Assembly (NCBI RefSeq): GCF_021729865.1
Contig: NZ_CP063400.1
Coordinates: forward strand, 1,302,001 to 1,366,000
Length of the DNA stretch: 64,000 bases
Source: Hydrogenophaga sp. SL48
GTDB lineage: Bacteria > Pseudomonadota > Gammaproteobacteria > Burkholderiales > Burkholderiaceae_C
Direction: 5' to 3'
Positions 16,151 through 24,478 of the stretch are shown in pieces. Position 1 is the first letter of the stretch. Every line of letters begins with the position of its first letter. A program made the position numbers and the translations under genes. The notes beneath the pieces were generated by a model, which saw nothing but the letters and a program-made list of their open reading frames with translations, had not been told where the DNA came from and made no database searches.

Positions 16151-16201
16151 GGGAAAATCGCGGTTTTAGATCATGCAAGAGCGAGAAAGGCAAGTCTGGT
16201 T

Positions 16202-16243
16202 ATGACACCGCGAACTACGAAGACGATGTCTTTGACCCACTGA
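16202..16243 (+). CDS. Threonine-rich leader peptide of thrS
   Basis: The frame encodes MTPRTTKTMSLTH and stop: five threonines in thirteen residues (codons ACA, ACT, ACG, ACG, ACC), three of them within residues 5-8. An AGAAAGG ribosome site (16184-16190) precedes the ATG by 11 bases. The peptide lies 84 bases before thrS and is followed by a strong intrinsic terminator, the layout of ribosome-mediated attenuators such as the thrABC and pheST leaders. Bases 16209-16216, within codons 3-5, are perfectly complementary to 16251-16258. A ribosome stalled at the ACT or ACG codons would block that pairing. This is too short to be called by standard gene finders. Confidence 0.75.
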   Translation: MTPRTTKTMSLTH

Positions 16244-16312
16244 GGTCTGCAGTTCGCGCCTGCCCGTTCCCTTTGTTCTCCATCTTCAGCGCGGCCTTTG
16301 CCGCGCTTTTTT
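16209..16312 (+). promoter_or_regulatory. Putative thrS attenuator with alternative stems and terminator
   Basis: Segment 1 (CGCGAACT, 16209-16216) pairs perfectly with segment 2 (AGTTCGCG, 16251-16258). Segment 3 (AGCGCGGC, 16288-16295) pairs perfectly with segment 4 (GCCGCGCT, 16300-16307) around CTTT, followed by six T: an intrinsic terminator 16 bases before thrS. Segment 2 can instead pair with segment 3 through CGCGC (16255-16259) and GCGCG (16289-16293), a short but GC-only antiterminator. Stalling on threonine codons would release segment 2 and so favour thrS expression. The antiterminator is the weakest part of the model. Confidence 0.7.
16288..16312 (+). terminator. Intrinsic terminator in the thrS leader
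   Basis: This hairpin has an eight-base perfect stem, a four-base loop and six T directly upstream of thrS. No gene other than the leader peptide lies upstream on this strand, which supports attenuation rather than simple termination of an upstream operon. Confidence 0.88.
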
Positions 16313-16327
16313 GTTTCTGGACTTCCC

Positions 16328-18235
16328 ATGCTTCACATCACGCTTCCCGACGGTTCACAACGCGAATTTCCCGGTCCGGTCACAGTGGCTGAGGTCGCTG
16401 CCTCCATCGGCACTGGGCTGGCGAAGGCCGCCTTGGCTGGGAAGATCAATGGCAAGGTGGTGGACACCAGTTTTCTGATCACTTCCAACAGCCCGCTGTC
16501 CATCATCACCGCCAAGGACGCCGATGGCCTGGAGGTGATCCGCCACTCCACGGCCCACTTGTTGGCCTATGCGGTGAAAGAGTTGTTTCCTGACGCTCAG
16601 GTGACCATCGGTCCTGTGATCGAGCACGGCTTCTTTTACGACTTTTCATACAAGCGCCCCTTCACGCCCGAAGATTTGGTGGCGATCGAAAAACGCATGA
16701 CCGAACTGGCGAGCAAGGATGAGCCGGTCGTGCGTCGCGTGTTGCCGCGCGACGAGGCTGTGGCCTATTTCAAAGGGCTGGGTGAGCACTACAAGGCCGA
16801 CATCATTGCCAGCATCCCGAGCGGGGAAGATGTGTCGCTGTATCGCGAAGGCAAGTTTGAAGACCTGTGCCGCGGCCCGCACGTGCCGAGCACGGGCAAG
16901 CTCAAGCATTTCAAGCTGATGAAAGTGGCCGGCGCCTACTGGCGCGGCGATCACCGCAACGAGATGCTGCAGCGCATCTACGGCACGGCTTGGGCGACCA
17001 AGGACGAGTTGCAGCAGTACCTGACGATGCTGGAAGAGGCCGAAAAACGCGATCACCGCAAGCTGGGCCGTGAGCTGGATCTGTTTCACATCGATGAACA
17101 CTCGCCGGGCACGGTGTTCTGGCACCCCAAGGGGTGGACCGTTTGGCAAGAGGTTGAGCAGTACATGCGCAAGGTGTATCGCGACAACGGTTACCAGGAG
17201 GTCAAAGGCCCGCAGATTCTGGATCAAGGTCTGTGGGAGAAGACGGGCCACTGGGACAAATACCGTGAGAACATGTTCGTGACCGAGTCGGAGAAGCGTG
17301 ATTACGCTTTGAAGCCGATGAACTGTCCGGGTCATATCATCATCTTCAAGCAGGGCATCAAGAGCTACCGTGATCTTCCGCTGCGTTTTGGCGAGTTCGG
17401 CCAGTGCCACCGCAACGAGCCGTCGGGCGGGCTTCACGGCATCATGCGGGTGCGCGCCTTCACCCAGGACGATGGCCACATTTTCTGTACCGAGGACCAG
17501 ATCCAGGCCGAGGTGGTGGCGTTCACCACGTTGCTGCAGAAGGTCTACAAGGACTTTGGATTCACCGACATCATCTACAAGCTGTCCACCCGTCCCGAAA
17601 AGCGCATTGGCACAGAAGAGAGCTGGGACCGCGCCGAGGCAGCGCTGGCTGAGGGCTTGAAGGCCTCCGGCTGCAACTTCGAGTACTTGCCAGGCGAGGG
17701 CGCCTTCTACGGTCCGAAGATCGAGTACACCTTGAAAGACGCGCTGGGTCGGCCGTGGCAGTGCGGGACCATACAGGTGGACCCGAATCTGCCCGAGCGC
17801 CTGGATGCCGAGTACGTGGGCGAAGATGGCTTGCGCCATCGCCCGATCATGTTGCACCGCGCCATCGTGGGCAGCTTGGAGCGTTTCATCGGGATTCTGA
17901 TCGAGCAGCATGCCGGTGCCTTGCCTGTTTGGCTGGCGCCGGTGCAGGTTGCGGTGCTCAATATCACGGACGCGCAGGCAGATTGCTGTCGCGAAATTGT
18001 CAAATCACTGCAAAATCAAGGGCTTAGGGTCATGACAGACCTGCGCAACGAGAAAATCACGTATAAAATACGGGAGCACGCGTTGCAAAAGCTGCCTTAC
18101 ATCCTCGTCGTGGGCGACAAGGAGAAGGATGCTGGCGCCGTGGCTGTACGGGCGCGGGGTAACAAAGACCTCGGTGTCATGCCGCTGGAAGACTTTTCCA
18201 GACTGATCGCGGCTGACGTTTCATCCAAGGTTTGA
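16328..18235 (+). CDS. thrS: Threonyl-tRNA synthetase
   Basis: ThrRS charges tRNA-Thr and edits Ser-tRNA-Thr. The 635-residue protein has an N-terminal TGS domain (about 1-60), an editing domain, a class II catalytic core with zinc ligand C333 in M-N-C-P-G-H, and a C-terminal anticodon-binding domain. I use ATG 16328 (M-L-H-I-T-L-P-D-G), the family-typical start, although the ribosome site is weak; a start at 16298 would lie inside the terminator hairpin. Expression is probably controlled by the threonine leader and terminator upstream, unlike E. coli, where ThrRS represses its own translation. It heads the translation gene block. Confidence 0.97.
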
Positions 18236-19778: not shown

Positions 19779-19828
19779 AGGGGTTGAGGCTTGAGGGATT
19801 TCCCTCGGTGCTCTCAGCCCCTTTTTTG
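19779..19828 (+). terminator. Stem-loop and T tract between rplT and pheS
   Basis: AGGGGTTGAG (19779-19788) pairs with CTCAGCCCCT (19813-19822) over ten bases with one G-U pair. An inner GAGGG/CCCTC stem extends it, and seven T follow. It ends 22 bases before pheS. No phenylalanine-rich leader frame like E. coli pheM is visible, so a partial terminator is more likely than leader-peptide attenuation. Confidence 0.7.
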
Positions 19829-19850
19829 TTTTGCCAAACACTGAACACAC

Positions 19851-24401: not shown

Positions 24402-24478
24402 CGGCGTGTAGCGCAGCCTGGTAGCGCACTTGCATGGGGTGCAAGGGGTCGCGAGTTCGAATCCCGCCACGCCGACCA
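24402..24478 (+). tRNA. tRNA-Pro (anticodon GGG)
   Basis: The acceptor stem CGGCGTG pairs with CACGCCG, followed by an encoded ACCA tail. The D arm is GCGC...GCGC around AGCCTGGTA. The anticodon stem CTTGC/GCAAG encloses ATGGGGT, giving GGG at positions 34-36. The T arm has GTTCGAAT with one mismatched pair. A TATAAT precedes the gene and a terminator follows. GGG reads CCC and CCU proline codons. Confidence 0.97.

Follow-up and report, generated by a model that had tools for sequence, protein, structure and literature searches.

How do beta-proteobacteria match threonyl-tRNA synthetase (ThrRS) to need? In E. coli, ThrRS binds its own mRNA at an anticodon-mimic, tRNA-like hairpin and thereby controls thrS translation. 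We analysed a 64,000-nt stretch of the Hydrogenophaga sp. SL48 genome (the window; contig NZ_CP063400.1, positions 1,302,001 to 1,366,000) that contains the only full-length thrS of this genome, a second match, 25% identical, being related to part of ThrS. The leader elements that an initial annotation had noticed before thrS are real, its promoter alone being weak. We conclude, with a probability of about 0.88, that this leader is a ribosome-mediated transcription attenuator that senses Thr-tRNA charging. Transcription start, leader translation, termination in cells and a response to threonine are what we infer from the following features, given in window coordinates.

16153 to 16158, plus strand: -10-like element GAAAAT of the presumed thrS promoter, with no clear -35; similar elements occur in relatives
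16183 to 16190, plus strand: presumed leader ribosome-binding site GAGAAAGG, 11 nt ahead of the leader ATG
16198 to 16218, plus strand: near-invariant nucleotide block GGTTATGACACCGCGAACTAC, from a 17-nt pattern and codon conservation
16202 to 16243, plus strand: leader peptide frame MTPRTTKTMSLTH plus stop, read from the sequence, with frame-specific Thr enrichment in relatives
16209 to 16216 (codons 3-5), plus strand: segment 1, CGCGAACT, the protector stem strand, which pairs with 16251-16258 on folding
16251 to 16258, plus strand: segment 2, AGTTCGCG, partner of segment 1 on folding, overlapping the antiterminator arm
16255 to 16262, plus strand: antiterminator arm CGCGCCTG, which pairs with 16287-16293 in a fold of 16227-16300
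16288 to 16307, plus strand: intrinsic terminator hairpin (left arm 16288-16295, right arm 16300-16307), with covariation over 72 distinct terminators
16307 to 16312, plus strand: terminator T-run, read from the sequence
16328 to 18235, plus strand: thrS, threonyl-tRNA synthetase, the presumed controlled gene

The frame, the terminator and the alternative pairings can be read or folded directly from the window, as first described. The frame runs through 13 codons from ATG at 16202 to TGA at 16241-16243 and carries threonine at positions 2, 5, 6, 8 and 12. A short frame rich in codons for the cognate residue is one hallmark of an attenuator, and the leader fits it with five Thr of 13. The terminator, AGCGCGGC(CTTT)GCCGCGCT, forms eight pairs, seven of them G-C, and 15 nt separate the end of its T-run from the thrS ATG at 16328. 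Segments 1 and 2 make the perfect eight-base pairing that had been claimed. The claimed alternative pairing with the terminator left arm is likewise present, for part of segment 2: 16255-16262 and 16287-16293 join through five pairs, one bulge and two pairs, which gives segment 2 a choice between two partners. Folding of the whole leader RNA gives the 1:2 helix plus the terminator; removing the RNA up to 16226 lets the 2:3 pairing form, and removing it up to 16235 yields a best fold that differs from the 2:3 pairing. The whole-leader fold beats shuffled sequences by a modest margin (z -1.68; 10 of 200 shuffles as good), so it is conservation, not folding energy, that excludes chance.

Together these elements would form an attenuation switch. 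Transcription would begin about 37 nt ahead of the 13-codon leader with its five Thr codons. With Thr-tRNA charged, the ribosome would traverse the leader and depart, segments 1 and 2 would pair, the terminator hairpin would form and transcription would halt before thrS. With charged Thr-tRNA scarce, the ribosome would stall at the Thr codons, covering segment 1 and freeing segment 2, which would then pair with the terminator left arm and let RNA polymerase continue into thrS.

Signals for the start of transcription and translation are of uneven clarity. The initial annotation called the promoter plausible, and the evidence is divided: a -10-like GAAAAT is present, and 47 of 74 relatives have a loose pattern of this kind 5' of the leader, against 5.8 in shuffles, but a consensus scan of the window passes no sigma-70 site upstream of the leader. 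The presumed ribosome-binding site is invariant at all bases except the first in 19 close relatives.

The leader is widespread among relatives, in two sets that may share species. The named set holds the best 80 of more thrS loci, of which 78 include the thrS start (L067 and L068 do not and were left out), giving 79 regions with the window. The order set consists of 69 of 299 thrS-bearing genomes whose upstream sequence was read, 29 of them among the matches listed and 40 chosen for family spread. Thr leaders occur in 54 of the 79 named regions (best 80 of more; window counted), and in 51 of these 79 a frame beginning MTPR(T) lies 120-190 nt 5' of thrS. Three Ralstonia loci carry a MIQAPRTTTASERQ or MIRAPRTTTASERQ leader farther upstream of thrS, preceded by a tRNA-Val gene in both of the loci checked (two of three). 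Thirty-nine of the 69 order genomes, from 14 of 28 families, have a picked Thr leader; L121, L152 and L178, with mis-picked frames, were left out of this count and of the tail-frame test below. The order peptides differ among themselves (MTPLTTFCQAFQR, MFLPLARTTTRNFRPMSR, MNTNTTRTTTTRHT, MQRTSTKTITYLG, MSFRTTTTGSLNLA, MFKRTTTTRISR, MPRTHTTTGHFSRRG, MQLNRTTTTS and others), and a peptide that changes while its threonines are kept is the trace one would expect of selection on Thr codons. A terminator-like hairpin follows 92 of 96 candidate leaders.

Threonine, and no other residue to a comparable degree, marks these frames. We counted small ATG frames with at least three of five residues alike, residue by residue, over 148 beta-proteobacterial regions, three of which have less than 400 nt of upstream sequence. 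Thr frames appear in 80 of 148 regions, followed by Val (15), Ser (11), Arg (9) and Ala (9); the opposite strand gives Thr frames in 7 of 148, and 20 dinucleotide shuffles give a mean of 2.15. The enrichment is specific to the reading frame. In the tails of MTPRT leaders (codon 6 on, n = 71), ACN makes up 153 of 603 codons in frame (25%) and 7 of 532 and 20 of 532 out of frame (1-4%). These tails come from 71 of 72 MTPRT regions, since in L121 (MTPRTFPSLI) the picker passed over the leader for another frame. Relatedness inflates the Thr counts but would hardly explain the frame effect on ACN, because the fractions are unchanged when 69 distinct tails are counted. Thr counts are biased for a further 25 non-MTPRT leaders in the codon analysis, since Thr was the criterion by which they were chosen.

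The start of the leader is conserved at the nucleotide level. A 17-nt pattern of the leader start occurs in 147 of 200 family genomes, with copies counted genome-wide, and the backwards pattern in 0 of 200. In 71 leaders codon 2 is ACA in all 71, codon 4 is CGA in 67 and codon 5 is ACT in 64, and these are rare codons: in six local genes they account for 11, 8 and 6% within their codon families. Within 300 nt 5' of thrS, 32 of 69 order genomes have CGAACT, whereas shuffles predict 3.9. Both the fixed rare codons and the excess of CGAACT would suit a leader that responds to a general slowdown of translation, or to a pause at the rare CGA-ACT pair, instead of to Thr-tRNA specifically. We consider that reading very improbable: the enrichment in the variable tails and in the unlike leaders is for Thr and not for Arg or anything else, and the downstream gene is thrS. 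The rare-codon fixation may be due in part to pairing with segment 2; the fixation of rare codons in GGTTATGACACCGCGAACTAC as such is left unexplained by the Thr-stalling model. The short core alone is unspecific, as copies away from thrS indicate: the 13-mer CACCGCGAACTAC is found in 48 of 300 order genomes, at 12 loci upstream of thrS and 18 elsewhere among the 30 loci in the matches listed, and the window's own genome contains another copy that is not near thrS.

Aligning relatives, the check that the initial annotation had proposed, gives a clear result for the Thr codons and the terminator and a modest one for the alternative stems. Among 72 distinct terminators, all six core pairs show compensatory changes on both sides. 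Core cells are paired in 98.8% of cases against 14 to 76% in slid controls, and both-side-changed cells number 22 against 3.2 in shuffles, with 0 of 500 shuffles as high. L129 and repeats were also left out of this terminator alignment (A2); alignment A1 comprises 19 of 76 candidate sequences. The 1:2 helix of the window hardly varies among 19 close relatives: seven of its eight pairs are constant, and 8 of the 19 lack the remaining pair. Covariation therefore speaks neither for nor against the helix there. Over 90 loci, the duplex energies of the two alternative stems lean weakly in the right direction relative to shuffled spacers (mean z -0.97 and -0.84), reaching p <= 0.05 in 23% and 21%; the stems of the window taken singly give p values of 0.055 and 0.115, neither of which reaches 0.05. 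Two further pairings were rejected as conserved parts of the leader. Direct pairing of a leader CCGCG with the terminator left arm fails as a conserved antiterminator in L132 and L134, where the arm has become GCACGG together with its partner and the leader is unchanged, and a hairpin at the stop codon reaches p <= 0.05 in only 4 of 71.

Simulated stalling shifts the leader in the predicted direction, lending support to the proposed switching. We masked the RNA under a ribosome whose stall site was the first Thr codon to follow codon 2. Mean sequestration of the terminator left arm rose from 0.515 to 0.745 (n = 90), against 0.612 to 0.631 in the shuffled-spacer control (Wilcoxon p 1.8e-10, n = 90, a value that is too small because the rows are related). 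L121 and L152 were left out of the stem-energy and stall tests for their mis-picked frames. Single loci rose by more than 0.1 in 53 of 92 cases, fell by more than 0.1 in 7 and changed little in 32; in the window, simulated sequestration went from 0.41 free to 0.84 stalled. By computation, then, the locus has an intrinsic terminator between leader and gene and a mutually exclusive antiterminator that a stalled ribosome would free. The left arm stays sequestered when the simulated ribosome is placed at the stop codon, at 0.80 in the window and on average 0.62 across 92 loci, so low expression would need prompt ribosome release.

Not every relative carries the leader. Relatives without a Thr-rich frame had been named in advance as counter-evidence, and such relatives exist in part: MTPR(T) and Thr patterns find no leader in 25 of the 79 named regions (best 80 of more), and 30 of the 69 order genomes have no picked Thr leader, while the rest carry one. 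Fourteen of 28 families are without a picked leader, and all but two of these contributed just one genome. The leader label needs 12 changes on the ThrS tree, at least six of them by well supported branches. One locus (L034) retains a decayed leader with ATA in place of ATG.

Terminator-like hairpins outlast the leader, and this bears on whether the hairpin serves thrS at all. It could be the ordinary terminator of an upstream transcript such as a tRNA-Val gene, with thrS starting downstream of it and the small frame arising by chance. Such a reading would account for the 19 of 25 leaderless named loci that still have a terminator-like hairpin no more than 100 nt from thrS (a loose test), and for the many beta-proteobacterial loci in which a tRNA gene lies directly upstream and is followed by a terminator, some of them without a Thr frame. 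In the window, however, no tRNA gene lies upstream, the one tRNA that ARAGORN finds being at 24402; the leader sits between the -10-like element and the terminator; and just 15 nt separate the terminator from the thrS ATG. Thr frames are also far above chance and frame-specific. A thrS start site of Cupriavidus metallidurans is moreover tabulated under Rmet_R0015, a locus tag of the kind given to RNA genes (PMC9045368), so thrS may be read there from the promoter of that RNA gene. On balance we judge an ordinary upstream terminator improbable and retain the threonine attenuator.

Leaderless relatives that keep the terminator are unexplained by the Thr-stalling model. In eight of the 25 (L002, L004, L007, L008, L026, L032, L042 and L043; a raw count, uncontrolled for chance), an AAAAT is shortly followed by a GCGTT able to base-pair with the terminator left arm, and a switch without a leader peptide is possible at these loci. 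A broader conjecture, which we hold tentatively and think unlikely, would combine two parts: GGTTATGACACCGCGAACTAC, whose rare-codon CGA-ACT core is conserved as nucleotides across many families, would be a second signal besides Thr stalling, for example a set pause or a site for bound RNA or protein, and leaderless lineages would control thrS peptide-free through a promoter-proximal terminator and a short antiterminator arm (GCGTTT with AAGCGC). In several Comamonadaceae (e.g. L002, L005 and L042), thrS is preceded by another protein frame, probably isocitrate lyase. Several of these loci are leaderless; L113 and L119 have both that frame and the leader.

The contrast with E. coli drawn by the initial annotation is right, and seems to be one between beta- and other gamma-proteobacteria. 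We compared 28 non-beta genomes of 114 searched in the class. In 17 of these 28 non-Burkholderiales loci (L182-L209), no more than about 75 nt 5' of thrS, there is a motif with a CGU-bearing loop like that of the E. coli ThrRS operator. The pattern GRYCYYTSGTR(n)GRYCR, written after viewing these loci and identified with the operator by resemblance, lies 30-74 nt 5' of thrS in 17 of 28 and in E. coli K-12, and in 0 of 148 beta-proteobacterial regions. The ThrRS operator thus looks wider than enterobacteria. At the threshold used above, a Thr-rich frame occurs in 1 of the 28 loci (L198), where it overlaps the operator-like motif. Autogenous repression by ThrRS through a tRNA-like hairpin, with the leader incidental, is how E. 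coli thrS is controlled, and a looser (C/T)TCGTA does occur within 90 nt of thrS in 3 of 148 beta-proteobacterial regions (L075, L116 and L163). The distribution of the full motif makes this hardly credible as the control of beta-proteobacterial thrS, even for a pattern that would miss a diverged operator.

Attenuation by a threonine leader has several known counterparts, each differing in gene, residue or sensor. The E. coli thrABC leader (ThrL) is longer, reads Ile too and controls biosynthesis genes. It shares with the thrS leader a Thr-rich peptide, alternative hairpins, a terminator and the sensing of Thr-tRNA charging; the thrS leader differs in its target, in its shorter peptide and in having no Rfam match. 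In the window, the Rfam Thr_leader and T-box models are not among matches to E 5 and E 10, and nothing reaches gathering even with loose thresholds; a 15-bit match to a Burkholderia sRNA (gathering 46) was taken as chance. Rfam at gathering in 20 relatives finds tRNA genes only. E. coli pheM-pheST is likewise an attenuator in which a leader peptide governs an aminoacyl-tRNA synthetase, and it shares the gene neighbourhood (pheM being annotated as operon leader peptide), but it uses Phe instead of Thr and stands before pheST, not thrS. The E. coli thrS operator acts on the same gene for the same purpose, ThrRS matched to need, but as a protein-bound anticodon mimic that works on translation and whose motif is absent from the 148 beta-proteobacterial regions.

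Beyond proteobacteria, other leaders before synthetase genes are on record, here as given in the available parts of the sources. In bacilli, His leader peptides precede hisS paralogs (Naville and Gautheret 2010, PMC2965389); they too are leader peptides before an aminoacyl-tRNA synthetase gene that replace another sensor in a clade, with a different amino acid, gene and phylum, and the main text of that paper, as far as available, has zero mentions of thrS. The thrS genes of Bacillota are controlled by T-box riboswitches (PMC12452182), which also respond to tRNA charging but bind tRNA directly, without a leader peptide; the beta-proteobacterial leader has no T-box match in Rfam. Closest is thrL of Streptomyces lividans, proposed as a threonine-dependent leader of thrS and resembling ours as a short Thr-containing frame (MKRVRPFLETTPGFVPAR) upstream of that gene (PMC8079986). 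It belongs to another phylum and has another peptide with two Thr, a leaderless start and, according to its authors, no clear uridine-rich terminator, whereas the window has five Thr and the beta-proteobacterial leader a clear covarying terminator and wide conservation. The initial annotation knew of no leader control of thrS in betaproteobacteria, and this stands apart from the Streptomyces proposal: we found no description of a beta-proteobacterial thrS leader in a partial open literature without important older papers. The attenuation mechanism is classical; no prior description of beta-proteobacterial thrS as its target was found.

Two proteobacterial branches thus appear to have solved one problem twice. 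The comparison suggests that they match ThrRS to demand by unrelated means, an mRNA operator in many gamma- and a leader attenuator in many beta-proteobacteria. The leader is spread over much of the beta-proteobacteria, before an essential gene, at a place where E. coli, the textbook relative, relies on an unrelated operator, and the two controls make a natural pair for studying how control systems on an essential gene are replaced. Threonine-responsive thrS is predicted in many genera, and lineages with the terminator but without the leader are natural mutants.

Two further observations concern the neighbourhood of thrS. Judged by eye, the genes downstream of it in the window are infC, rpmI, rplT, pheS and pheT, the order of E. 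coli, which has pheM in addition ahead of pheS. No Phe-rich leader frame is evident by eye at 19780-19830, where a terminator-like hairpin with a T-run lies between rplT and pheS in the position of E. coli pheM. On the upstream side, a tRNA gene lies 5' of the thrS leader in L143, L146-L148, L164, L176 and other order genomes of several families, and where typed (L055 and L060) the upstream tRNA is tRNA-Val. At loci with such a gene, tRNA and synthetase may share a common transcript.
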